Assembly: GCA_021785175.1 (NCBI GenBank)
Contig: JAJYGH010000074.1
Span: 1 to 33,817 of the forward strand
Direction: 5' to 3'
Length of the DNA: 33,817 nucleotides
Source: Chloroflexota bacterium
GTDB taxonomy: Bacteria; Chloroflexota; Limnocylindria; Limnocylindrales; CSP1-4
Position 1 is the stretch's first letter. The number at the start of each line of letters is the position of its first letter. The notes beneath the pieces were generated by a model that saw nothing but the letters and a program-made list of their open reading frames with translations, ran no database searches and was not told the DNA's origin. The position numbers and the translations under genes are program-made. This document shows, piece after piece, positions 20,204 to 32,730 of this stretch.

Positions 20204-20899
20204 TCAGCGCTCCACGGCGGGCTCGGGCGGGAGGAGCCGGTAACCGGCGCCGCGGACCGTCTGCAGCAGCGGCGGGCATCCCGGCGCGTTCAGCTTGCGC
20301 CGCAGGTATCCCACGTACACGTCGACGATGTTGCTGCCAGGGTCGAAGTCGTACTCCCACACGCGGTCCAGGATCCGGGCCCGCGAGAGGACCTGGTGCG
20401 GGTGGCGCATGAGCAGCTCGAGGAGCGCCCACTCGCGCGGTGCGAGGTCGATGCGCCTGTCGCCCCGCCACGCCACCTTCGAGAGCAGGTCGAGGCGGAG
20501 ATCGCCGACCACGAGCATCGACGAGGTGGTCTGGTCACGCGCGCGGAGCGCGGCCCGGATCCGGGCGAGCAGTTCGTCGAAGTGGAAGGGCTTCGTCATG
20601 TAGTCGGCCGCGCCCGCATCCAGGCCCTCGACCTTCGAGTCCACGTCGTCGCGCGCGGTGAGGATGAGGATCGGGAGGGCCGGGAATCTCGCACGCAGCT
20701 CGCGGAGCACCGCGCGTCCGTCCGGACCGGGCAGTCCGAGGTCGAGCAGCACCACGTCGAGCCCCGCGCCCTCCGTGGCGGCAAGCGACATGGCCTCTTC
20801 GCCATCCCTGGCCACGAGCGTCGCGTAGCCCTCGGCCCGGAGACCCTTGGCGAGGAACGAGACGATCCGCTCGTCATCCTCGACGATGAGGACACGCAT
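20204..20899 (-). CDS. OmpR/PhoB-family response regulator
   Basis: This 231-residue DNA-binding regulator has a receiver domain with the acidic pair at 8-9, phosphoacceptor Asp53 (LLDLGLPGPDG), the conserved Thr in LILTARDD and Lys in YMTKPFHFDEL, then a winged-helix output domain (from about 130) with LAPREWALLELLMRHPHQVL, ILDRVWEYDFDPGSNIVDVY and VGYLRRKL, ending in TVRGAGYRL. It pairs with the kinase upstream, whose stop overlaps its start by one base. The regulated genes are not visible; the neighbouring glycan locus and the KimA-like gene are candidates by position only. Confidence 0.95.
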   Translation of the reverse strand: MRVLIVEDDERIVSFLAKGLRAEGYATLVARDGEEAMSLAATEGAGLDVVLLDLGLPGPDGRAVLRELRARFPALPILILTARDDVDSKVEGLDAGAADYMTKPFHFDELLARIRAALRARDQTTSSMLVVGDLRLDLLSKVAWRGDRRIDLAPREWALLELLMRHPHQVLSRARILDRVWEYDFDPGSNIVDVYVGYLRRKLNAPGCPPLLQTVRGAGYRLLPPEPAVER

Positions 20900-22398
20900 C
20901 AGTTGCGCGCTTCGGCCACGACCGTCCGACGCCCGCGCGCGTCGCGGGCCGAGCCCGACGAGGCCGTCGACACGACGCGATCCGCCGGCAGGACGATGCG
21001 GACGACCGTGCCGATGCCCGGCGCGCTCTCGAGCGCCGCCCTTCCCGAGTGCGCCTCCGCCACGGCCCGGACGATCGCCAGGCCCAGGCCGGCGCCGCGC
21101 GCGCGCCTGTCGCCGGACCGCGTGAACCGCTCGAACAGGCGCGGCTGCTCCTCGGGCCGGACCCCGCGCCCGCCGTCTGATACCGACAGGACGATGTCGC
21201 CGTCGATGCGGGCCTCGAGCGAGATGAAGTCGCCGGGCGCGGTGGCCTTCACGGCGTTGTCGACGAGGTTGAGCAGGGCGCCGCGCAGCTTGGCCGGGTC
21301 GACGCGGATGACGACGTCGGGCCCGGCGGAGAGCGACCAGCGCCGCGGTGCGAGGGCCTGCGCGGCCTCGAACAGGTCCGCCATGAACGATCGCAGGTCG
21401 ACGTCCTCCTCGGCGAGCGCCCCGGGCTCGAGGGCGCGTCCGAGCAGCAGCATCTGGTCGACGAGCGCGACGGTCCGGGTCAGCTCGTCCAGGACGAGCG
21501 CAACCGTCTCCTCGGTCTCCGCGGGATCGTCGTACCGGCTCCGTCGGAGGACCTCGAGATGACCGCGGATCACGGTCAGCGGCGTCCGGATCTGATGCGA
21601 CGTCTCAGAGAGCAGCTGCCGCTGCGCCGTGAACGCCTTTTCGATTCGGCCGAGCATGTCGTCGAACGTCCGGGCGAGCCGGCCGACCTCATCGTTCGGG
21701 CCGTGATAGTCCAGCCTCAGGCCGAGCTGGTCATGGGTGATCCCGTGCGCAGCAACCGTGATGCGGTCCACGGTACGGAGCGCGCGGCGGAGCAGCAGGT
21801 ACGTCCCGACGAGCGTGATGAGGAGCGCGAGCCCAGCCTCGAGCCCGGTCAGCGCGACGGTCTCGCGAGCCTGTGCCTGGAGTCCGGCCAGACTGGCGCT
21901 CGCGATGAGGACGCCGACCGGCCGGCCGTCGAGCCAGACCGGCGAGCCCAGCAGCCGGTACTGCTGGCCGCCGGCCTGCACCGTCGTGAGCGTCGTGGCG
22001 AGGGGTGGGTGCGCGAGCCACGACTCGACCTGCGGCACGGCCTGCGGCGCTCCCGGGCTCGTGACCGGCGGCGACCCCGGGAGCTCGATGATCAGCGCGG
22101 CGCCGCTCGCGAGGGTGTGCGTCAGGACGTACCGGCGGGCGAACGCGGCGAGTGTCTGCGTCGGGGGTCGCTGGGCGGCCGCGCCGCTGAACTCGGGGAT
22201 CTCCTCGCCGAGATCCGTGTCAAGGGACCGCGAGAGCTGTCCGACGAACAGCTGGCTGACGACGAGGAGCACGACGGCCAGAGCGAGGGCGAGGAGGAAC
22301 CCGTAGAGCAGCATCAGGCGCGGGACGAGCCCCCACCCGGCGAACGGGCGCGACGCCAGTAGCCGGATACGGCCGGCTCGCCGAGTTCCCCCGTGCAC
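20899..22398 (-). CDS. Membrane sensor histidine kinase
   Basis: This 499-residue two-component kinase has a first membrane helix at about 27-52 (LMLLYGFLLALALAVVLLVV), an extracytoplasmic sensor of about 130 residues with no recognised domain, a second helix (GLEAGLALLITLVGTYLLL), a HAMP linker (DEVGRLARTFDDMLGRIEKA), the HisKA H-box SETSHQIRTPLTVIRGHLEV with the phosphorylated His, and a HATPase domain with N-box LVDNAVKA, G1 SDGGRGV and G2 GAGLGLAIVRAV. I favour GTG 22398, which lies ten bases after a TATGCT box; ATG 22413 lies inside that box. The gene starts about 50 bp after the UDP-glucose dehydrogenase stop, so it may also be reached by read-through. Confidence 0.93.
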   Translation of the reverse strand: MHGGTRRAGRIRLLASRPFAGWGLVPRLMLLYGFLLALALAVVLLVVSQLFVGQLSRSLDTDLGEEIPEFSGAAAQRPPTQTLAAFARRYVLTHTLASGAALIIELPGSPPVTSPGAPQAVPQVESWLAHPPLATTLTTVQAGGQQYRLLGSPVWLDGRPVGVLIASASLAGLQAQARETVALTGLEAGLALLITLVGTYLLLRRALRTVDRITVAAHGITHDQLGLRLDYHGPNDEVGRLARTFDDMLGRIEKAFTAQRQLLSETSHQIRTPLTVIRGHLEVLRRSRYDDPAETEETVALVLDELTRTVALVDQMLLLGRALEPGALAEEDVDLRSFMADLFEAAQALAPRRWSLSAGPDVVIRVDPAKLRGALLNLVDNAVKATAPGDFISLEARIDGDIVLSVSDGGRGVRPEEQPRLFERFTRSGDRRARGAGLGLAIVRAVAEAHSGRAALESAPGIGTVVRIVLPADRVVSTASSGSARDARGRRTVVAEARN

Positions 22399-22408
22399 GG
22401 CGCCGCCG

Positions 22409-22414
22409 AGCATA
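22409..22414 (-). promoter_or_regulatory. -10-like box near the histidine kinase start
   Basis: TATGCT on the minus strand, identical to the box before the KimA-like gene, lies ten bases before GTG 22398. It suggests a separate promoter for the two-component genes at the end of the glycan locus. Confidence 0.35.
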
Positions 22415-22448: not shown

Positions 22449-23864
22449 TCAGGCCCCAGCGACAGCCGGAGCGGCCGCGGCCACCGCGCCGGACCGAAGC
22501 GCCCACTCGATCGGTGCCCACACCACGGGGTGGAACGACGTGGGAGCGCCGCGCCCGACTCCGTACACGGTGAACCCGGCGTCGCGCCAGGCCTGTGACG
22601 GCAGCGCGTTGACGGCGTCGAAGATGATGCGGCGCGCCATCGCCCTGCCCACGATCTCCGGATCGAGCGCCGCGTACTCCGGCCAGCCCGTGGCGACCAC
22701 GAGCGCGTCCGCGTCGCGGGCCGCCTCGAGCGGCTCGTCGACCCGCGCCGCCGGGATGGTGACCGGCGAGGCGAGCGGATCCTGGGCGTGCACGATCGCG
22801 CCGCGCTCGACGAGCAGGCGGACCAGGTCGACTGCCGGCGAGTCGCGGGTGTCGTCGGTACCGGGCTTGAACGCGAGGCCGAGCACGCCGATGCGCGCGC
22901 CATTCAGGCCGCCCAGCGCCGTCTCGAGGCGGTCGATCACGGACCGTCGCGCGCGCGCGTTCGTCGCCTCGGCCGCGGCCGCCAGCGGCGCCTCGTACCC
23001 AACGGCCTCGCCGACGGCGAGCAGCCCCGACAGGTCCTTGGGCAGGCAGGAGCCGCCGTAGCCGGGTCCCTGGCTGAGGAACTGCGTGCCGATGCGGCTG
23101 TCGAGGCCGACACCCCGCAGGACCGGCGTCGCATCCGTCCCGAGCCGTTCGCACAGGCCCGCGATCTCGTTGGCGAACGAGATCTTGATCGCCAGGAACA
23201 CGTTCGACGCGTACTTCACGAGCTCCGCCCCGCGCCGGTCGCTCAGTACCACGGGGGTGCCCATTTCGTAGAGCTCGGCCACGCGACGCCCCGTCTCCGC
23301 GTCCTCCGCTCCCACCACGATCCGATCCGGGTGGAAGAAATCCTCCACCGCACGGCTCTCGCGCAGGAACTCCGGGTTCGACACCACGCTGATCCGCTGC
23401 CCGGGCGCCGCGTGTTCTTCGGAAAGGAGCTCCAGGGCTTCGCCGGTGCCCGGCGGCACGGTGCTCTTGTTCACGAGGATCAGGTCGCGACCCGTGCTCG
23501 TGACGACGTCGCGCGCGGCACAGGCGAGCTGGCCGAGGTCCGGCGTGCCGTCGGCGCGAGGCGGCGTCCCGACGCACATGAACACGATCGAGGCCTCGGC
23601 CATCGCCTCGTGGACGTCGTCCGTGAACGACAGCCGGCCCGCCGCAACGTTCCGCGCGACCAGCTCGTCGAGGCCGGGCTCGAAGATCGGGACGACCCCG
23701 CGGCGGAGCAGCCCGAGCCGGGCGGGGCTGGCCTCGAGGCAGCGCACGCGGTGGCCGAGGTCGGCGAAACAGGCGGCGGCCGTGAGGCCGACGTACCCGG
23801 CTCCGACGATGCAGAGGTCGGTGGGGCGCTCGGCGTGGCCGTGGGTGATCGAAGTCATGGTCAT
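22449..23864 (-). CDS. UDP-glucose 6-dehydrogenase
   Basis: This 471-residue cytoplasmic enzyme oxidises UDP-glucose to UDP-glucuronate with two NAD+. The Rossmann motif GAGYVGLTAAACFA (about 21-34), CVGTPPRADGTPDL, NKSTVPPGT, VSNPEFLREGxA-like SNPEFLRESRAVEDF, the central helix with KYASNVFLAIKISFANEIA, and the catalytic Cys273 in GPGYGGSCLPKD are all present, followed by the third domain with VLGLAFKPGTDDTRDSPA. The last 40 residues are extra and Ala-rich. ATG 23864 or the ATG two codons later is served by GGGAG. It lies 80 bp after the ABC exporter gene. Within the glycan locus it should supply the uronic acid donor, on which the linked epimerase could act. Confidence 0.95.
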   Translation of the reverse strand: MTMTSITHGHAERPTDLCIVGAGYVGLTAAACFADLGHRVRCLEASPARLGLLRRGVVPIFEPGLDELVARNVAAGRLSFTDDVHEAMAEASIVFMCVGTPPRADGTPDLGQLACAARDVVTSTGRDLILVNKSTVPPGTGEALELLSEEHAAPGQRISVVSNPEFLRESRAVEDFFHPDRIVVGAEDAETGRRVAELYEMGTPVVLSDRRGAELVKYASNVFLAIKISFANEIAGLCERLGTDATPVLRGVGLDSRIGTQFLSQGPGYGGSCLPKDLSGLLAVGEAVGYEAPLAAAAEATNARARRSVIDRLETALGGLNGARIGVLGLAFKPGTDDTRDSPAVDLVRLLVERGAIVHAQDPLASPVTIPAARVDEPLEAARDADALVVATGWPEYAALDPEIVGRAMARRIIFDAVNALPSQAWRDAGFTVYGVGRGAPTSFHPVVWAPIEWALRSGAVAAAAPAVAGA

Positions 23865-23944
23865 GCTCCCGGAGGTCGGCTGGGCGTGACAGGTGGCAGG
23901 GATGTTCCGTGCGGGACGCGGCGACCGGCGCAGGCCGGGGGCGG

Positions 23945-25798
23945 TCAGGCGCCCATGGCGTCGGCTCGGGCTGGTGGCGGGCCGAAGGCCGCAGCTGCGG
24001 CGGGGAGCGAGGCAGGTCGCGCTCCCGCACCTGCGGCGAGCCGCTCCGGCCCCGCGTCACGTGCTTCGCCGGCCACGCCGCGGCCGAAGACCCGCTCGAA
24101 CGCGTCCGCGGCGGTCCCCGTGGCCACGACTCTCCCGGACGCGATCGCCACCACGACGTCGGCCCATTCGACGACGCGTCGCTCGTGGCTCACCACGAGG
24201 GTCGTGCGTCCTCGCGAGACGCGCTCGAGCGCGTCGAGCAGCCACTGCTGGGCCTGCTCGTCCAGGCCCGTCGTGGGCTCGTCGAGCAGGATCACGCGGG
24301 GGTCGCGCACCATCGCGCGCGCCAGCGCGATGCACTGCCGCTGCCCGCCCGAGAGCGACGCGCCCCGCTCCGACACCACCGTGTCGTACCCGTCGGGGAG
24401 ACGTGCGAGCACCTCGTGCACGCCCGCGGCGCGCGCCGCGACGACGGCCGCTTCACGGGACAGCCCATGGCCGCCGTAGGTGATGTTCTCCCAGACCGGC
24501 CCCTGGAAGAGGTATGGCTCCTGCGGCACGTACGCCACCAGCTCGCGCAGGCCCGCGATCGTGAGGTCGCGCAGGTCGACGCCGTCGAGCTCGACACTCC
24601 CCTCGCACGGGTCATAGAAGCGCGGGACGAGCTGGAGCATCGAGCTCTTGCCCGATCCCGTCGCGCCGACGATCGCGACGCGCGCGCTGGCGGAGATGTC
24701 GAGAGAGACGTCGTCCAAGGCTACCGTCCCATTCGCGTATTCGAGGCTCACGCCCCGGAACGACAGCGCACCGAGAGGCTTGGCCGGCCGGCGGGCCGAC
24801 GGCCGCTCGGGGATCCGCTCGTCCGTCGAGAGCGTCTCGGCGAGCCGCTCCGCCGCGGCCATCCCGCGCGTGACGACGTTGCCGAGCTTCGCGAGCTGCC
24901 GGACGGGCGAGTACATGCCGCGGAGGTAGGCCATGAACACGAGCAGGTCGCCGGGCGTGAGCCGTCCGCTGAGGACGGACTCCGCGCCGAACCACACCAC
25001 GAGCACGGTCGCGGTCGTCATGAGGAACGTGACGGTCGGTGTGAACGCCGCCTGCATGGCGACGGCCTCCTGGCTCGCCTCGAGCGAGTGCGCGCTCGCG
25101 CGCCCGTACCGATCGGCCTCGTCATCCTCGCGACCGAACGCCTGCACCGCGGTGATCGACGTCAGGACCTCCTGCGCGACGCCCGTGGCCATGCCCTCCC
25201 AGCGGCGCGCGCGGCGCTGCTGCGACTTGATGCGGCCGAGGAAGCCGCGGACGGCGAGGTACAGGACCGGCGTGAGCGAGACCGCGACGAGCGTGTATCG
25301 CCAGTCGATCCAGAACATGATCGCGAGCATCCCGGCCAGCGCCAGAACGTTGTTCACCAGGACGGGGATCGCGTTGACCATGACGCCCTGGACGGACTGC
25401 ACGTCGCCGCCGAGGCGGCTCAGCAGGTCGCCGGTCAGCCGTCGCTCGTGGAAGCTGAGGGACTGGCTCTCGATGTGGCGGAACAGGTCGGACCGGATCG
25501 CGAAGACGACGCGCTGCCCCGCCTGCGCCACGAGACGATCGGCGACGTAGCGGAAGATTCCGAGCCACGCGGCGATGACGAGCATCGCCAGCGCGAGCAC
25601 GGTCAGCCGTCCGCCGGGACTGACCGGGAGGAACGCGAGGAACCCCGGCAGCGGATGCGTGCCGATGACGCTGTCGAAGATCAGCTTGAGCGGCCACGGC
25701 TCGAGCCACTGCATGGCGGCCTGGACGATGCTCGCGGCGAGGCTCGCCGCGAGCGCGCCACGGACTGGGCGCAGGTACGGCGCGAAGGTCCGGATCAT
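23945..25798 (-). CDS. ABC exporter (MsbA-like, fused membrane and ATPase domains)
   Basis: This 617-residue half-transporter should act as a homodimer. Residues 1-310 form a six-helix ABC exporter domain (FDSVIGTHPLPGFLAFL loop, VVFAIRSDLFRHIESQSLSF, FHERRLTGDLLSRLGGDV). The ATPase domain follows: Walker A GATGSGKSS, Q-loop YVPQEPYLFQGPVWENI, signature LSGGQRQ and Walker B VILLDEPTTGLD, plus the switch SHE (usually SH). The signature reads LSGGQRQCIALARAM. The end is an Ala/Pro/Gly-rich tail of about 40 residues. The ATG overlaps the stop of the preceding glycosyltransferase (ATGA). Its place in a glycosyltransferase operon suggests export of a lipid-linked or otherwise assembled glycan, but lipids or drugs are possible substrates. 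Confidence 0.93.
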   Translation of the reverse strand: MIRTFAPYLRPVRGALAASLAASIVQAAMQWLEPWPLKLIFDSVIGTHPLPGFLAFLPVSPGGRLTVLALAMLVIAAWLGIFRYVADRLVAQAGQRVVFAIRSDLFRHIESQSLSFHERRLTGDLLSRLGGDVQSVQGVMVNAIPVLVNNVLALAGMLAIMFWIDWRYTLVAVSLTPVLYLAVRGFLGRIKSQQRRARRWEGMATGVAQEVLTSITAVQAFGREDDEADRYGRASAHSLEASQEAVAMQAAFTPTVTFLMTTATVLVVWFGAESVLSGRLTPGDLLVFMAYLRGMYSPVRQLAKLGNVVTRGMAAAERLAETLSTDERIPERPSARRPAKPLGALSFRGVSLEYANGTVALDDVSLDISASARVAIVGATGSGKSSMLQLVPRFYDPCEGSVELDGVDLRDLTIAGLRELVAYVPQEPYLFQGPVWENITYGGHGLSREAAVVAARAAGVHEVLARLPDGYDTVVSERGASLSGGQRQCIALARAMVRDPRVILLDEPTTGLDEQAQQWLLDALERVSRGRTTLVVSHERRVVEWADVVVAIASGRVVATGTAADAFERVFGRGVAGEARDAGPERLAAGAGARPASLPAAAAAFGPPPARADAMGA

Positions 25799-27027
25799 GC
25801 CGCGACTCCCGCGAGCGGCTGCGCGGTGAGTGCTTCCGATCCGGGCTCGAATGGGTCCGCCGCGCCCGGCTCCGGCTCGAGCGCCGCGCCGAGCGTCCGC
25901 CGGACCACGGCGCCCCAGCCGTACGACCGGATGGCGCGCTCCCGGGCGGCTTCCGCGAGCGCGGGCGCCTGCGGGTCGTCGAGCACGGCCTCGATCGCGG
26001 TGGCGAGCGCCGGGACGTCCCCGGGCGGGACGAGATGGCCGTGCCCCGCGAGCAGGTCCTCGATCGGCGCGAACCGCGAGGCGACGACCGGCCGCGCGGC
26101 GGCCATTGCCTCGACGACCTTGAGCGGCGAGAAGTAGAAGCCGAGCTCGGTCGCTGCCTCACGATAGGGCGCGGCAGCGACGTCGAACGCACCGACGTAC
26201 GCGGGCACCGCGGCCGCGGGGACGGCGCCGAGGAAGTGGACGCGTCCTGCGAGCACGCCGGTTGCCTGTGCTTCCAGCGCCGCGCGTTCCGGCCCGTCGC
26301 CGACGATCAGGACGTGCAGTCGGGACCGCCGGCCGACCAGGGTCGCGGCGGCGTCGAGCAGCACGTCGACGCCGTGCCACGGCTTCAGGCTGCCGAAGAA
26401 GCCGACGACCTCGGCGCCGGCCAGGCCGAGCGACGCGCGTGCGGCGGTGGATGCGGCCGGGTCGGGCGCGAACCGCGCAACGTCGACCCCATTTGGCACG
26501 ACGCGGACGTGCGCGGCCCCGCGCTCGCGAGCCCAGGCCGCAAGCGGGGCGGAGACGGTGACAGCGCGAGCGCCGGACAGTGCGGCCCGTTCGAGCCGCT
26601 CGCCGGCCTCACGGTCGGCGACGCCGATCCGGCCCGCGCGCTCGTCGATGACGGGCGCGTTCACCTCGACGAGCCGGCGCGCGCCCGGTGCCGCGGCGAG
26701 AGCGGCGCCGCCGCCCGCGAACGCCGACAGACGCTCGTGGACCAGGTCGGGGCGGAAAGCGGCAAGGAGGTCGAGCGCGCATTCGAAGAACCGCTCCGCG
26801 GCCGCAACGCGCAGGGTGTCGTGCTGGGGGCCGTGCGGCAGCGGTCCGGGATCGAGGACCTCGAGCTGGACCCCGTCCGGGGCGGGCGCGGCCGCCCGCA
26901 TCGCGACCAGCAGCACCTCGTGGCCGGCCCGGACGTACGCGGCCGTGAGCTCGGCAACATGAACGGAAGCGCCCTTGGTGCCGCCGACCGGGATCCCTGG
27001 ATCGGGGAGCACGTATGCGATCTTCAT
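25795..27027 (-). CDS. Glycosyltransferase family 4-like (GT-B fold)
   Basis: This is a 410-residue cytoplasmic or membrane-associated sugar transferase. The N-terminal half starts KIAYVLPDPGIPVGGTKGAS, the glycine-rich acceptor loop of GT4 enzymes; the C-terminal donor half has RVVPNGVDVARFAP, VVGFFGSLKPWHGVDVLLDA, LIVGDGPERAAL, VHFLGAVP and a final donor site GFYFSPLKVVEAMAAARPVV, containing the E..ACG/P-type E.MA motif. The usual E-x7-E reads FYFSPLKVVEAM, so the first acidic residue may be lacking. Both its start and stop overlap neighbouring genes (ATGA), so it is co-translated with another glycosyltransferase and the ABC exporter. Donor and acceptor cannot be read. Confidence 0.9.
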   Translation of the reverse strand: MKIAYVLPDPGIPVGGTKGASVHVAELTAAYVRAGHEVLLVAMRAAAPAPDGVQLEVLDPGPLPHGPQHDTLRVAAAERFFECALDLLAAFRPDLVHERLSAFAGGGAALAAAPGARRLVEVNAPVIDERAGRIGVADREAGERLERAALSGARAVTVSAPLAAWARERGAAHVRVVPNGVDVARFAPDPAASTAARASLGLAGAEVVGFFGSLKPWHGVDVLLDAAATLVGRRSRLHVLIVGDGPERAALEAQATGVLAGRVHFLGAVPAAAVPAYVGAFDVAAAPYREAATELGFYFSPLKVVEAMAAARPVVASRFAPIEDLLAGHGHLVPPGDVPALATAIEAVLDDPQAPALAEAARERAIRSYGWGAVVRRTLGAALEPEPGAADPFEPGSEALTAQPLAGVAA

Positions 27028-28376
27028 CGCGCCGGCACCTCGGTCGCCATCGCCGGCGCTGCGGCCCCCTCTGCGTGTTCCGCCGCGACGCGCGACACGG
27101 AGGCCTGCGGCCGGCCGAGCGATGCGCCCGTGACGAGCGCCGCCATCGTACGGACAGCCGCACGACGGTCGAACCGGCCGAGGATCCGCGCCCGCGCGGC
27201 GTGACCGAGCGCCGAGCGGAGGGCGGGATCGGCCGCGAGTCGCGCGATCGCGGCCGCGAGCGCATCAGGATCGGAACTCGGCACGAGCAGGCCGGTCTCG
27301 CCGTCCGTCACCGCCTCGGGGATCCCGGCGACGTCCGAGGCGACGACGGGCAGGCCGCTTGCCATGGCCTCGAGCAGGACGTTCGGGATCCCGTCGCGGT
27401 CACCGTCGGGCAGCACCACGCTTGCCTGCACGAAGACATCCGTGAGCCCGTACGCGGCCGCGACCGCTTCGTGCGGCTGTGCACCCTCGAACGCGACGAG
27501 CGGCGCGATCCCGAGCGACCGGGCGCGGGAGGTCAGGCGTCCCGCGAGCGGACCGTCACCGATGATCCGGCAGGTGAACGTCGCCGACGAGGGATCGCCG
27601 GCCAGCCGGGCAAGCGCCTCGAGCAGGACGTCGTAACCCTTCTTCTCGACGAGGCGCCCGACCGCGAGGATGCGCAGCGGAGCTGCCTCGTTCCGGACCT
27701 CCGGGGCCGGCCGGAAGCGCACCACGTCCACACCGTGCGGGAGGAGACGGATCGTGTCCGCGCCTCCCGCCGCGGCCGTCACCAGCTCGTCTCGGGCGCT
27801 GCGAGAGCACGCCGTGACGAACGCGGCGTCGGCGATGCGGAGGGCGAGCTGCCGCGGGTCGGAGACGTAGATGTCCTTGGCGTGGCCGCCGAAGCTGAAC
27901 GGCAGCCCGGTCAGGAGATGGACCTGGTGGGCGATCGCCGCGGGCCCGTGGGCGAACGCGGCGTGCAGGTGCACGGCGCCTGCGCGCTCGAGCTCGACCG
28001 CCAGGCGCCCCGCGTCGACGAAGTGCGACAGCCTCGCCCGCCGCTTCGGTTGGCCGAGCGCGGCGAGCAGGGTGCGGGCGTAGGCGCGCGGGCGGCGAGC
28101 CGCCAGGTGGGCGTGACACGCGACCGTGGTGCCGAGCCACCGGAGCCGGTCGGGCACGGTCGGTTCGGGGCGGAGGTAGCGCACCTCCGACGCGACCCGT
28201 GCCACGTCGGGCTGGACCACGCGCTCGTGCGGGTCCCGGATCGAGTACAGCCGCAGCGGCACGCCCTGCGCCTCGAGGCCCAGGATCTCGTCGAGGATGA
28301 ACGTCTCGGAGAGCCGCGGGAACCGCTTGGTGAGGTAGCCCACGACGCCCTGCACGCCTTCTTCCCGTTCGGTCAT
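27024..28376 (-). CDS. Glycosyltransferase family 4, colanic-acid WcaL-like
   Basis: This is a 450-residue GT-B glycosyltransferase. The N-terminal VVGYLTKRFPRLSETFILDE is the hallmark of WcaL/ExoL-type exopolysaccharide transferases; HLHAAFAHGPA and FSFGGHAKDIYV continue the acceptor half. The donor half has LLPHGVDVVRFRP, LRILAVGRLVEKKGYDVLLE, IIGDGPLAGRL, VAFEGAQP and the E-x7-E motif GIPNVLLEAMASGLPVVASD. It matches the family over its full length. It overlaps both neighbours by ATGA. The best-known relatives build colanic acid and other secreted heteropolysaccharides, so this is good evidence that the locus makes an extracellular glycan. Confidence 0.93.
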   Translation of the reverse strand: MTEREEGVQGVVGYLTKRFPRLSETFILDEILGLEAQGVPLRLYSIRDPHERVVQPDVARVASEVRYLRPEPTVPDRLRWLGTTVACHAHLAARRPRAYARTLLAALGQPKRRARLSHFVDAGRLAVELERAGAVHLHAAFAHGPAAIAHQVHLLTGLPFSFGGHAKDIYVSDPRQLALRIADAAFVTACSRSARDELVTAAAGGADTIRLLPHGVDVVRFRPAPEVRNEAAPLRILAVGRLVEKKGYDVLLEALARLAGDPSSATFTCRIIGDGPLAGRLTSRARSLGIAPLVAFEGAQPHEAVAAAYGLTDVFVQASVVLPDGDRDGIPNVLLEAMASGLPVVASDVAGIPEAVTDGETGLLVPSSDPDALAAAIARLAADPALRSALGHAARARILGRFDRRAAVRTMAALVTGASLGRPQASVSRVAAEHAEGAAAPAMATEVPAR

Positions 28377-29632
28377 GCCGGCACCGCCAGCGACTCCTCG
28401 GCCTGGAGCTCGGCGTCCGCCGCGCGGCTTCCGAGCCGGATCGCCTGCGACGCCCGCGCCTCATCGAGCAGGACCTCCCGAAGACGCGGGAGCCCCAGCC
28501 GGTCGAACGTCGAGGCGTCGTGGCGTGCCGCGGCGAGTGCGGCGCGGAGTGCCCCCTCGAGCCGGTCTTCGAGCCCGGAACCGCCGTCCACGACCCGGAC
28601 CAGTCCGCGCGAGGCGAACCGTTCCGCGCGGATCTGCTGCTCGCGGCGCGGCCACGTGCGCGGCACGACGACGGTCGGCGTCCCGCTCGGGATCGCCTCC
28701 ATCAGCGAGTTGTAGCCGCCCATCGTGACGACGACACTCGCGGCCGCCATCGCCCCCTCGAGCCCGGGCACGAACTCCTCGAGGTGGCCCCCGTGGCTCG
28801 CCGCGACCCGGGTCTGCAGCACCGCCCGGTCCTCGCCGCTCATGAGCGGACCGGTGACCAGCAGGCTCGGCAGGCCGAGCCGCTCCGCCGCCTCCAGCGT
28901 GGCCAGCAGCACGTCGACGCCGTCGCCGCCGCCGCCGGCAGTACCGAGCACGACCCGCATATCCGGGGTCCAGCCGGGGATCGGCACGGCGGGCTGTGCG
29001 GCCGGCTGCCGGCAGAGGTACCCGCAGTATGTCGTCCGCTCGAGTGTCTCTTCCGGCATGCCGTAGCCCGCCAGGTCGACGAGGTCCGGGCTCCCGTACA
29101 CGACCACGCGGTCGTAGACCTCGCGCAGCGTCGTCGGGATGTCCTGCGCCTCCCATGTCCGGCGAACCACGGCCGGCTCGTCGACGACATCGCGCAGGCC
29201 GAGCACGATCCGGGTGGCCGGCGACCGGTGCCGGAGCGCGTCGAAGGCGCGCAGCAGTTCGGCCTTCATCCCCTGGGGTGCGTGATCGACGAGGAACACG
29301 TCGGGCTCGAAGCGGCGGGCGACATCGGCGATGATCGCCGCGCGCGCGCGCCACACGATCGAGAACGGCAGCCGGGGGTCGCGGGATGTGTATTCGTCGA
29401 CCCCGGTCTTCACGACCGGCGGCAGCGAGACCACGGTGAGGTTCTTCGGCAGGTCGAAACGCTCGGTGACCGTGGACCCGCTGAGCAGGACGACCCGGAC
29501 GCCGGGGATGTGCTGCAGGATGTCCTGCGCGATCAGGACGTTCCGGCGCAGGTGACCGAGGCCATACGTGTCGTGCGAGTACAGGAGGAGGCGCTGCAGT
29601 CCGGGACGTGTCTTCATCGTCATGTTCCCCAT
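28373..29632 (-). CDS. Predicted glycosyltransferase, MurG/COG4671-like
   Basis: This 419-residue protein is a GT-B fold transferase of the poorly characterised COG4671 type, related to MurG. The N-terminus LLLYSHDTYGLGHLRRNVLI carries the glycine/histidine loop; VFLVDHAPQGMKAEL and LGLRDVVDEPAVVRRTW are typical of the family; the donor half has VLGTAGGGGDG, SLLVTGPLM, VVVTMGGYNSLMEAI and GTPTVVVPR. MGGYNS with a following glutamate is the MurG-like nucleotide-sugar site. Three in-frame ATGs occur at 29632, 29623 and 29617; GGGGA lies within the first few codons and would best serve one of the inner ones. It overlaps the next gene by ATGA and follows the epimerase by 35 bp. Confidence 0.85.
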   Translation of the reverse strand: MGNMTMKTRPGLQRLLLYSHDTYGLGHLRRNVLIAQDILQHIPGVRVVLLSGSTVTERFDLPKNLTVVSLPPVVKTGVDEYTSRDPRLPFSIVWRARAAIIADVARRFEPDVFLVDHAPQGMKAELLRAFDALRHRSPATRIVLGLRDVVDEPAVVRRTWEAQDIPTTLREVYDRVVVYGSPDLVDLAGYGMPEETLERTTYCGYLCRQPAAQPAVPIPGWTPDMRVVLGTAGGGGDGVDVLLATLEAAERLGLPSLLVTGPLMSGEDRAVLQTRVAASHGGHLEEFVPGLEGAMAAASVVVTMGGYNSLMEAIPSGTPTVVVPRTWPRREQQIRAERFASRGLVRVVDGGSGLEDRLEGALRAALAAARHDASTFDRLGLPRLREVLLDEARASQAIRLGSRAADAELQAEESLAVPA

Positions 29633-29667
29633 GAGTCGTGCGTGGTGGAGACCTCGGCGGACTTCGC

Positions 29668-30663
29668 TCAGGCCGCCTTCGAGAGACCGGAGTCGGCGGA
29701 CGTGCGCGCGATGCTCACTGCTCGCCCGCGGAGCCGCCCCCGGACCCAGGCCACTTCTTCGGCGTATCCGTCGGCAAAGACGACCTGTGGCCGGAAGCCG
29801 AGCAGTTCCCGGGCCCGCGTCAGGTCGGCCTCCGTGTGCCGGACGTCGCCACGTGCCACCGGCTCGTGTCGGACACGGACGTTTCGCCCGACGAGACGCT
29901 GGAGCATCTCGATCGCCTCGAGGAGCGAAACGCGCGACCCGCCCCCGACGTTGACGGCCATGCCGGCGACGGGAGCCGAGGCCGCGAGGACCGTCGCCTC
30001 GACGATGTCGTCGACGTACGTGAAGTCTCGGCTCTGCGTTCCGTCACCGAGGACGTGCAGGTGGGCACCGCGCAGCGCCGCCTCGGCAAAGCGGCGCAGG
30101 GCCAGGTCGGGCCGCTGATCGGGTCCGTAGACGGTGAAGTAGCGGAGGGCCACGGTCTCGAGACCGATCGAGTTCGCGCCCAGGATCGCCTTCTCGGCCA
30201 TGAGCTTGGTCCGGCCGTACGGCGAGATCGGGGCCACCGGGGCGGTCTCGCTGAACGGGACCGGCGCGTTGCCGTAGAGCGAGGACGAGGAGGCGTAGAC
30301 GATCCGGCGGACGGAGGCCGCTCCCTGGGCCGCCGACACGAGTCGCGCCGACGCCTCCACGTTGTCGTGGTGGTACAGCCGTCCCTGCCGGAAGCTCGGA
30401 CGGACGCCGGGCCTGCCTGCGAGATGGAAGATCACCTCGGTGCCGCGCAGCAGCGACTCGAGCGGAGCGTCGACGAGATCCCCGGCGACGAGCCGGAACC
30501 GGCGGTGGCGGGAGAGGGCGGCGGCCCGCGCCAGCTTCTCGGACGGGTCGTACGTGTCGGTGAACCCGTCCACGCCGATGACGTTCCAGCCGCCATCCAG
30601 GAGCCGGGAGCTGAGGTGCGACCCGATGAACCCGGCTGCGCCGGTGACGAGACAGGTGGACAT
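29668..30663 (-). CDS. NAD-dependent sugar-nucleotide epimerase/dehydratase
   Basis: This is a 331-residue short-chain dehydrogenase-type enzyme. The NAD-binding motif is GAAGFIGS (8-15), followed by an Asp at the second strand (VDGFTDTYD), the catalytic pair Tyr149/Lys153 in SPYGRTK with the upstream YASSSSLYG, and RYFTVYGPDQRPDLALRRF, which resembles UDP-glucuronate 4-epimerases and other UDP-uronate-acting members. Since UDP-glucose dehydrogenase is encoded in the same run, conversion of UDP-glucuronate to UDP-galacturonate or decarboxylation to a pentose is a plausible role. ATG 30663 has a strong GAGGAGG a few bases upstream; the far longer open frame upstream belongs to the neighbouring gene's antiparallel frame. 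It begins 29 bp after the preceding stop. Confidence 0.93.
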   Translation of the reverse strand: MSTCLVTGAAGFIGSHLSSRLLDGGWNVIGVDGFTDTYDPSEKLARAAALSRHRRFRLVAGDLVDAPLESLLRGTEVIFHLAGRPGVRPSFRQGRLYHHDNVEASARLVSAAQGAASVRRIVYASSSSLYGNAPVPFSETAPVAPISPYGRTKLMAEKAILGANSIGLETVALRYFTVYGPDQRPDLALRRFAEAALRGAHLHVLGDGTQSRDFTYVDDIVEATVLAASAPVAGMAVNVGGGSRVSLLEAIEMLQRLVGRNVRVRHEPVARGDVRHTEADLTRARELLGFRPQVVFADGYAEEVAWVRGRLRGRAVSIARTSADSGLSKAA

Positions 30664-30692
30664 GTTCCTCCTCTTGCTTGCCCGTTCGGAGC

Positions 30693-31244
30693 TCAGGAAT
30701 CCGGGGCCGGCGTCGACGTCGCGTCGACGGGGTCCGTCAACGTGGGTTCGGGCGATGCGGCAGGCGTCGCGGTGGGCGCGGAGCCCGCGGTCGCCTCGCT
30801 GGTGGCCGTCGCCTCGACGGTCCCGGTTCCTTCCGCCGGCGAGGTGATGGCGGTGGACGTCGCCGATGGCTCGCGGGACGGCGTGGCGTCCGGCGCCGCG
30901 AGGGCTGCCGGAGTCGGATCGGGCGACGAACCGGCCGGGGACGGGCGGGGATGGGCGTCCGACGTCGGCGCGGCGGCCGACGTCGCGAGGTTCGTGACCT
31001 GCCGCCCGCCGGCGTCGGCCGGCGCCGCCACTTCCGACGTCCCGGGTGCGGCGAGCCCGGACGCCTGGCCGGGCGGCTCGTGTGCCGAACCGGTTCGCCC
31101 GCTGACGGTGGTCAGCATGACCGCCGGGGGAAATCGGGGGCGCGCGGGGACGGTCGTCACGAGGATCGCGACGACGAGGACGCCCAGCAGTCCTGTCGCA
31201 CCGACGAGGGCGGCCGTTGCCGGGTTGATCCGCCCTTGCCCCAC
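30693..31244 (-). CDS. One-pass membrane protein with long Pro/Ala/Ser/Thr-rich domain
   Basis: I do not recognise a family. Of 183 residues, 1-11 are polar and basic, 12-31 form one membrane helix (ALVGATGLLGVLVVAILVTT), and the rest is a low-complexity region rich in Pro, Ala, Ser and Thr with scattered Glu and Asp, predicted disordered and probably outside the membrane. Such regions in GC-rich bacteria often carry O-linked sugars. GTG 31244 is preceded by GGAGGT five bases away, one of the best ribosome sites in the window, which supports a real gene. It is the first gene of the run that continues into the epimerase, glycosyltransferases and exporter, so it may be the glycan's protein carrier or a structural partner; this is an inference. 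Confidence 0.7.
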   Translation of the reverse strand: MGQGRINPATAALVGATGLLGVLVVAILVTTVPARPRFPPAVMLTTVSGRTGSAHEPPGQASGLAAPGTSEVAAPADAGGRQVTNLATSAAAPTSDAHPRPSPAGSSPDPTPAALAAPDATPSREPSATSTAITSPAEGTGTVEATATSEATAGSAPTATPAASPEPTLTDPVDATSTPAPDS

Positions 31245-31334
31245 GCCGTACCTCCTGGTCCGGACGCTCGCGTCGGCGCGCGAGTCCGTGCCGGATGCCG
31301 GGAGGTTCAGGCCGGGAGATGAACGCCCGATGGA

Positions 31335-31362
31335 ACGCCCGTGAGAGAACTCTCACGGGCGT
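31335..31362 (-). terminator. Perfect hairpin downstream of hflX
   Basis: ACGCCCGTGAGAG (31335-31347) and CTCTCACGGGCGT (31350-31362) are exact reverse complements separated by two bases. It lies about 80 bp after the HflX stop and 90 bp before the GTG of the glycan-locus membrane protein. No T-run follows on the minus strand. It is likely a terminator that separates HflX from the glycan locus, or an operator of that locus. Confidence 0.55.
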
Positions 31363-31440: not shown

Positions 31441-32730
31441 TCAGGAGGCGGGGCGGAGTCCGGCCGCGGCCTCCAGCTCCCCCGCCAGCTGCGGCGCGAC
31501 CCTCCCGCGCACCCGCACGTCCGTGCCGCGGTACTCGATGTCGACCGTGCCGCGCTCGCGGACCCGCGCGATCAGCTCGCCGGCGGTGTACGGCAGCACC
31601 GCGTCGACGTCGACCCAGAGGTCGGCCAGGAGGGCGGAGAGCCGGGCCCGCAGCGTGTCGAGGCCGTACCCGGTGAGCGCGGAGACAAGCACGGCGTCGC
31701 CGATCATCGGGGCGGGGCTCGAGCCCTCGCGCGCGCCCGACTCCAGCAGATCGGCCTTGTTGTAGACCACGAGACGCGGCTTCGCGCCTGCGCCGAGCTC
31801 GTCCAGCACCTGCTGCACCGTCGCGAGGTGCTCGGCGAAGTGGGGATCGAAGGCGTCGACGACCTCGAGCAGAACGTCCGCCCGCGTCACCTCCTCGAGC
31901 GTGGCCCGGAATGCGTCGACGAGCTGGTGGGGCAGCTTGTGGATGAACCCGACCGTGTCCGTGACGATCGCGGACTGCCCATCCCCCAGCTTGACCGCGC
32001 GGCTGGTGGGGTCGAGCGTGGCGAAGAGTCGATCCTCGGCGCGCGCCGCCTCCGAGCCGTACAGCCCGTTCAGCAGCGTCGACTTCCCGGCGTTCGTGTA
32101 GCCGACGATCGCGACGGTCGGCACGAGCCGGCGGTCGCGTGAGCGCGACGCGACCTCGCGCTGGCGTCGCACGTCGTCGAGCCGCTCGCGCAGCCGCCGG
32201 ATCCGCTCCCGGATCAGGCGGCGGTCGGTCTCGAGCTGGGACTCGCCCGGACCCCGCGTCCCGATGCCCCCGCCTGTGCGCGAGAGGTGCGTCCAGAGGC
32301 GCGTGAGCCGCGGAAGCTGGTATTCCAGCTGGGCGAGCTCGACCTGGAGCCGTCCTTCGTGCGTCTGCGCGTGCTGGGCGAAGATGTCAAGGATCAGGCC
32401 GCTCCGGTCGAGCACCTTGCAGCCGACGAGCGTCTCGAGCGCCCGCTGCTGGTTCGGCGTCAGCTCGTCGTCGGCGATCAGCAGCGTGAATCCCGTCTCG
32501 GACCGCGCCTGCACGAGCTCCTGCGCCTTGCCCTTGCCGAGATACCAGCTCGGGTCGGGCGTGCGACGGTTCTGCCACTCCGCCCCGACGACCTCGGCGC
32601 CTGCCGTGTCGGCCAGGGCCGCGAGCTCGTTCACCGATTCCTCCGCCGTCCAGCCGGGCTCATCACCCGTGTCGACGGCGACGAGGAACGCGCGCTCCCG
32701 GGACGGTTCGAGTTCGATCAGGCGGGCCAT
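31441..32730 (-). CDS. hflX: Ribosome-associated GTPase HflX
   Basis: This 429-residue translation GTPase splits stalled or stressed 70S ribosomes. The N-terminal ribosome-binding domain includes WYLGKGKAQEL, LTPNQQRALE, VLDRSGLILDIFAQHAQTHE and the diagnostic loop GGIGTRGPGESQLETDRR (154-171). The GTPase domain has G1 GYTNAGKST (210-218), G3 DTVGFIHKLPHQL with the neighbouring FRATLEE, and G4 YNKADL. Length and order match the family. ATG 32730 is preceded by GGAGGA. It is divergent from the BON-domain gene and probably a single transcription unit ending at the hairpin 31335-31362. Confidence 0.97.
   Translation of the reverse strand: MARLIELEPSRERAFLVAVDTGDEPGWTAEESVNELAALADTAGAEVVGAEWQNRRTPDPSWYLGKGKAQELVQARSETGFTLLIADDELTPNQQRALETLVGCKVLDRSGLILDIFAQHAQTHEGRLQVELAQLEYQLPRLTRLWTHLSRTGGGIGTRGPGESQLETDRRLIRERIRRLRERLDDVRRQREVASRSRDRRLVPTVAIVGYTNAGKSTLLNGLYGSEAARAEDRLFATLDPTSRAVKLGDGQSAIVTDTVGFIHKLPHQLVDAFRATLEEVTRADVLLEVVDAFDPHFAEHLATVQQVLDELGAGAKPRLVVYNKADLLESGAREGSSPAPMIGDAVLVSALTGYGLDTLRARLSALLADLWVDVDAVLPYTAGELIARVRERGTVDIEYRGTDVRVRGRVAPQLAGELEAAAGLRPAS

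Follow-up and report, generated by a model that had tools for sequence, protein, structure and literature searches.

A nine-gene unit with a linked two-component system and a predicted operator that may make and export a uronic-acid-containing envelope glycan in Limnocylindria and its relatives

The window, by which we mean the whole 33,817-nucleotide stretch of Chloroflexota DNA that was analyzed, carries on its minus strand a run of seven genes between positions 31244 and 22449, all of whose open reading frames lie where the original prediction had placed them (Table 1). Five junctions of 80 bp or less, three of them overlaps, had been counted there; the three 4-bp overlaps are present, but all six junctions are in fact this short, the other three being gaps of 29, 35 and 80 bp. 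The run also extends past the dehydrogenase gene, since a histidine kinase gene starts about 35 bp beyond it and is followed by a response regulator gene (22413-20204), so that the unit comprises nine genes; as described below, these two additional genes are members of the conserved unit. Upstream of the operon, hflX ends at 31441. Scans of the locus for sigma-70 promoters and terminators found nothing, and a search for an RNA element at the promoter returned only one sub-threshold chance match.

Table 1. Coordinates of the genes and of the predicted operator in the window
Feature	Coordinates	Strand	Basis or remark
Predicted operator, GTGAGAGTTCTCTCACGGGCGTTCCATCGGGCGTTCAT	31319..31356	-	Inverted repeat TGAGA/TCTCA plus 11-bp-spaced YTCA direct repeats
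Leader, 183 aa, one TM segment, Pro/Ala/Ser/Thr-rich tail, lineage-specific	30693..31244	-	GTG start
NAD-dependent epimerase, probably UDP-glucuronate 4-epimerase	29668..30663	-	Pfam Epimerase; activity inferred
GT-B glycosyltransferase, GT28/GT1 superfamily (GT28)	28373..29632	-	Pfam Glyco_tran_28_C
Glycosyltransferase GT4a, EpsE/WcaL-like	27024..28376	-	Pfam, NCBIfam
Glycosyltransferase GT4b	25795..27027	-	Pfam, NCBIfam; absent in many Acidimicrobiia loci
MsbA-like ABC half-transporter, membrane domain fused to ATPase	23945..25798	-	PF00664 + PF00005
UDP-glucose 6-dehydrogenase (UGD)	22449..23864	-	Three UDPG_MGDP_dh Pfam domains; TuaD-like
Membrane histidine kinase	20899..22413	-	HAMP, HisKA, HATPase_c; start uncertain, 22413 or 22377
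OmpR/PhoB-family response regulator, PrrA/PhoP-like	20204..20899	-	Domain and relative matches

Pfam and NCBIfam matches back every enzyme call made for the seven genes earlier, namely UDP-glucuronate synthesis, an epimerase, three glycosyltransferases and an ABC exporter. The dehydrogenase translation contains the catalytic GGSCLPKD, its PDB matches are UDP-glucose dehydrogenases, and it matches the NCBIfam TuaD model with an E value of 1.2e-115 and 387 bits (equivalog cut-off 700). The best solved relatives of the epimerase are MoeE5 (3.1e-62) and 6zl6 (3.1e-58), both of which we take to be UDP-glucuronate 4-epimerases, and it is closer to these than to annotated UDP-glucose 4-epimerases (7ys8, 2.4e-41); this kinship makes conversion of UDP-GlcA to UDP-GalA the likely route. 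The GT28-like protein, which presumably belongs to COG4671, has MurG as the best PDB match of its profile, and the profile also matches UgtP (a processive diacylglycerol glucosyltransferase) and MGDG synthase. Its AlphaFold model (pLDDT 88) has a GT-B fold, and a fold search with this model ranked GT1 antibiotic glycosyltransferases first, not lipid-acceptor enzymes, so the structure search was set aside as uninformative about the acceptor. The ABC protein has PF00664 and PF00005 in one chain and is thus not a two-gene exporter of the ABC-2 (Wzm/Wzt) type. Its PDB matches are of the ABCB family, and its best NCBIfam match is TIGR02203 (MsbA), below that model's cut-off; the PglK model gives a weaker match (E value 3.9e-37, 128 bits, cut-off 1000).

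How widely is this gene set conserved? When 84,980 species genomes were scanned once, with the GT28 protein as query, 24 loci were recovered. The gene order epimerase, GT28, GT4a, (GT4b), ABC, dehydrogenase is found again in Limnocylindria, Dormibacterota, Acidimicrobiia and one MAG named Acidobacteria, and its conservation extends over several classes (class names being taken from a reading of MAG names), with identities that are mostly 40-88%. The set varies at its edges: Ktedonobacterales keep the glycosyltransferases, the ABC protein and the epimerase and are missing the dehydrogenase, some loci have the epimerase gene shifted to the opposite strand, and many Acidimicrobiia have no GT4b and have a second GT28 gene after the dehydrogenase gene (about 30% identical; seen at L055, L056, L058, L059, L061, L062, L064 and L069). 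GT28 is present in 28 of 400 sampled Chloroflexota genomes, and in the distant Chloroflexota GT28, GT4a, GT4b and the ABC protein are mostly found together with neither dehydrogenase nor epimerase nearby. Since these deeper lineages have neither UGD nor epimerase near the core, uronic acid is not an inherent part of the module; the three glycosyltransferases and the exporter look like an older module to which a uronic-acid supply was added. Two further neighbors were seen. A gene of the histidine phosphatase superfamily (two members were tested and both have PF00300), which in some cases diverges from the epimerase gene, adjoins the operon in Chloroflexota and Acidimicrobiia (L051, L052, L059, L062, L064, L065, L067, L069, L070, L071, L074 and L100) and is absent at this place in the window, and APH-family phosphotransferase genes (PF01636), in more than one copy in several cases, often lie by the GT28-GT4-ABC core of distant Chloroflexota (L150, L154, L155 and L158-L161).

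The nearness of the epimerase to MoeE5 of moenomycin synthesis and of the GT28 fold to natural-product glycosyltransferases, together with the APH-family kinases just mentioned, could indicate that the glycosyltransferases and ABC protein make an exported natural product, for example a moenomycin-like phosphoglycolipid, with the exporter serving as a self-protection pump. The conserved set has no scaffold-making genes (polyketide, peptide or prenyl), however, and conservation this wide, together with a regulator, is more usual for envelope functions; we consider a natural product very improbable.

Comparison of upstream regions revealed the element listed as the predicted operator in Table 1, which lies upstream of the leader gene. 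We scanned for it with a matrix and then with the template TGAGAnnnnTCTCAYn6YTCAYn6YTCA. The window copy is the sole site in its own genome at two or fewer mismatches, and shuffles of the window gave an expectation of 0. The element is conserved upstream of the operon across phyla: it is present in the window and in L048, L050-L054, L063, L065-L068, L073, L074 and L082, where template scores are 17-21 of 21 versus 13-17 in the shuffled loci, and weaker copies lie 66-68 bp ahead of the epimerase gene in L146 and L147. In G008, G017 and G421 the epimerase gene stands apart on the opposite strand with its own copy of the element, and L052/G161 has a second copy ahead of the dehydrogenase gene. 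The template matched 15 times in 61 relatives versus 0 times with the reversed control, and about 75 times versus 16 control matches in 400 Chloroflexota genomes, so real sites exist elsewhere; this last scan rules out an element unique to the present system. Among the sites read, others precede genes for PepSY-like, DoxX-like and FMN-binding-like proteins (names assigned by reading the sequences) and two-component systems, and the element is thus not specific to glycan genes. G017 also has two copies on two contigs (L101:7889 and L102:8327) ahead of near-identical proteins, and the one tested contains DUF6812.

The kinase gene occupies the same place downstream of UGD in L050, L052, L068, L073, L074, G001 and G003, and a kinase of at least 47% identity is present in 8 of 61 genomes, all 8 of which have operon genes. 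G011, G013 and G060 have less similar kinases (32-41%), which are members of other pairs, and in G002 the operon lies without a kinase on a short contig of an assembly that is 76% complete. The congener G006 (L075; 95% complete) keeps hflX, and both GT28 and the kinase are absent from its genome, which suggests that the whole unit was lost or transferred.

The element co-varies with the type of the linked regulator. Regulators of the window's subtype (subtype A) share the segment GSN(V/I)VDVYV in the DNA-binding domain, and this segment is found in all operator-bearing loci whose linked regulator was read except L061, where a partial copy of the element lies ahead of the regulator gene. All loci with a linked subtype-A regulator have the element upstream of the operon with 17-20 of 20 positions matched, whereas loci with the other linked subtype (YERVIDSHV) have an operon upstream region without it, most matching only 11-14 of 20 positions. 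Five loci of Acidimicrobiia type (L059:586, L060:8909, L062:7965, L064:2162 and L069:5069) have in common another upstream sequence, which contains TTTTCTYA and GAAACA blocks and may be the site recognized by the other regulator subtype. Direct repeats spaced 11 bp apart upstream of the regulated genes are what a tandem-repeat operator of the OmpR/PhoB family is predicted to show, and the spacing is in keeping with tandem binding by regulators of this family, for which PhoP gives a precedent of 11-bp tandem sites (PMC4832192) and PmrA one of action through tandem direct repeats (PMC3973317). We infer that the linked regulator binds the element and that the element is its operator. A regulator of the CutRS type was also considered and was rejected, as the published CutR site, TAWATAAA (PMC12802291), differs from the element. 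Phosphate-starvation control by a PhoP-like regulator was considered from the tua and glycolipid precedents described below, and no evidence for that signal was found.

The leader protein has no family match. It is a one-pass, Pro/Ala/Ser/Thr-rich protein, as originally described, with a single hydrophobic segment at about residues 12-32 followed by a low-complexity tail of 22% A, 17% P, 15% T and 12% S. The open reading frame is kept in the same place in G000, G001, G002, G007 and G028, a similar one lies ahead of GT28 in L052/G161, and wherever it is present it lies downstream of the operator and ahead of the first enzyme gene. Simple NG86 estimates on these short, diverged sequences gave dN/dS values of 0.95 for the tail, 0.37 for the TM part and 0.11 for the epimerase between G000 and G002, and of 0.68 for the tail and 0.31 for the membrane part between G007 and G001. 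The tail values are near neutral, so its composition is kept and not its sequence. The leader is a genuine gene, since relatives keep its open reading frame and purifying selection acts on the membrane segment.

Its distribution is nevertheless patchy. The leader is missing from G008, G017, G421, L051, L063, L146, L147 and all Acidimicrobiia loci with a readable upstream region. The leader in L052 was found by an operator-anchored screen, a screen of third-position GC alone having missed it. In leaderless loci that have the operator, it lies 66-203 bp from the first biosynthetic gene, which leaves no room for a leader. The leader is, then, a lineage-specific, local addition to a more widespread module. 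Similar proteins occur behind the element elsewhere: G190 (91% complete) has the operator, then a one-TM Pro/Ala/Ser/Thr-rich open reading frame and then a kinase and regulator, and no GT28 was found in this genome. In G011 (77% complete) a perfect element near a contig end is followed by a one-TM open reading frame with a long Asp/Ala/Pro/Thr-rich tail (L103:537-1294), and glycan genes are not adjacent to it.

Is the leader the carrier of the glycan, as was originally proposed? That proposal expected the leader and the glycosyltransferases to occur together constantly, and held that it would fail if homologous loci lacked the leader or if the leader were found unlinked to glycosyltransferases. 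The gene-order search found the leader not to be constant, most homologous loci being without it, and the G190 protein, without GT28 and directly before a kinase-regulator pair, is a leader-like protein unlinked to glycosyltransferases. Since both results were seen, the idea of an obligatory carrier fails, and we reject it on the distribution of the leader across homologous loci. The less demanding reading, that the leader is an acceptor whose Ser/Thr-rich tail is O-glycosylated with a uronic-acid glycan, draws on its position as first gene of the operon in the genus, in G028 and in L052/G161, on a tail that keeps composition but not sequence as mucin-like regions do, and on two PMT-family matches in the window's own genome. 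The same patchy distribution and the G190 arrangement count against it, and so does the fact that cytoplasmic glycosyltransferases with an ABC exporter require a separate enzyme for transfer to a protein that has been exported, and there is none in the operon. We regard this reading as improbable, and a glycosylated leader could still occur in the Limnocylindria lineage alone. The tail would suit a spacer or stalk, glycosylated or not, and is unlike an obligatory carrier for the whole system.

Could the leader act on the kinase instead? DbfQ is a small protein that is exported and is encoded together with a kinase-regulator pair controlling surface matrix and biofilm (PMC12714742), and the leader and similar one-TM low-complexity proteins may be two-component accessories that modulate the kinase outside the membrane as DbfQ does DbfS. 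The G190 protein directly before a kinase and regulator and under the same element, a PepSY-like protein under the element beside a kinase-regulator pair in G384, the one-TM Asp/Ala/Pro-rich protein behind the perfect element in G011 and the precedent of small proteins that are coded with, and tune, a two-component system (PMC12714742) all point this way. On the other hand, the tail evolves almost neutrally in sequence, which would not be expected of a binding partner, most loci with the kinase and regulator retained have no leader, and the window leader differs from DbfQ in being membrane-anchored and of low complexity. An accessory role is in our judgment unlikely, though it would agree with what we favor for the remainder of the operon (below).

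The original prediction also noted the lack of a Wzx/Wzy-type flippase or polymerase at the locus, and this observation can be widened. None is present in the operon, and in the window's own genome, which is 92% complete, there are no matches to PF04932 (Wzy_C), for which control genomes did give matches, or to PF02397 (Bac_transf, the PglC/TuaA-type initiator). The genome does contain two PF00953 proteins, one MraY and one perhaps of WecA/TagO type, and two LCP proteins, which would allow a wall-attached, undecaprenyl-linked polymer. Such a teichuronic-acid-like polymer would be started on undecaprenyl phosphate by the WecA/TagO-type enzyme, extended by the glycosyltransferases, flipped by the ABC protein and attached to peptidoglycan by LCP ligases, and the TuaD-like dehydrogenase would fit it as well. 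The genome is without a TuaA-type initiator and Wzy_C, however, and no initiator or LCP gene was seen in the recurrent neighborhood. This is the main rival to the explanation given below, and we hold it possible but rather doubtful.

PhoP controls the Bacillus teichuronic acid (tua) operon, and ugd is controlled by PmrAB and PhoPQ. The present locus resembles the tua operon in having a TuaD-like dehydrogenase with glycosyltransferases under the predicted control of an OmpR/PhoB-family regulator, and differs from it in that its genome is without a TuaA-type initiator or a polymerase, an ABC exporter replaces the flippase, and a dedicated kinase-regulator pair lies inside the operon. With PmrAB/PhoPQ control of ugd and arn it shares a membrane kinase, a regulator of the same family and tandem direct repeats (PMC3973317), but the repeat sequence differs, and the product would be made by glycosyltransferases and an ABC exporter and not by aminoarabinose transfer to lipid A. 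A fused-ATPase half-transporter beside glycosyltransferase genes is also found in MsbA/PglK-type flipping of lipid-linked oligosaccharides; here the exporter falls below both curated cut-offs and the genome has no PglC-type initiator. Finally, Caulobacter makes anionic glycoglycerolipids in phosphate starvation (PMC6445935), a precedent for regulated, on-demand synthesis of anionic glycolipids by glycosyltransferases. We have no evidence for a phosphate signal in the present case, and an exporter with three glycosyltransferases suggests a longer glycan than those.

The explanation that we favor, and in which our confidence is about evenly balanced, is that the nine genes form an operon under two-component control for the synthesis and export of a short envelope glycoconjugate that contains uronic acid, as follows: the dehydrogenase would oxidize UDP-glucose to UDP-GlcA, from which the epimerase, judged by its family, would yield UDP-GalA; the GT28-like enzyme would start a chain, or extend one, on a membrane-bound acceptor that is most likely a lipid; the two GT4 enzymes would complete an oligosaccharide of fixed length; and the MsbA-like half-transporter would flip the lipid-linked product once complete, which would account for the absence of Wzx/Wzy at the locus. 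The kinase would sense an envelope condition, and the phosphorylated regulator would bind the 11-bp-spaced repeats upstream and turn the operon on. The leader would be a co-regulated, lineage-specific, membrane-anchored stalk and not an obligatory carrier of the glycan. A short lipid-linked glycan that is flipped whole by the ABC protein appears to fit the gene set best.

In a broader and quite tentative view, this may be a cross-phylum envelope-response system, in which the dedicated kinase-regulator pair acts through a shared tandem operator to turn on an acidic-glycolipid module of three glycosyltransferases and an MsbA-like protein, and fast-evolving one-TM low-complexity proteins under the same operator serve the glycan or the kinase as partners at the surface. 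We found no paper on COG4671 glycosyltransferases or on such a locus in the open-access literature; the parts are known, and their arrangement with its own operator is apparently undescribed there. The low-complexity leader, earlier thought to carry the glycan, is better seen as a local addition to a wider module. One regulator and one DNA fragment would suffice for a direct test of the predicted operator, which also offers a handle for the rest of each regulon, and the system as a whole provides a concrete, testable link from an envelope sensor to a surface glycan in uncultured Limnocylindria, Dormibacterota and Acidimicrobiia.
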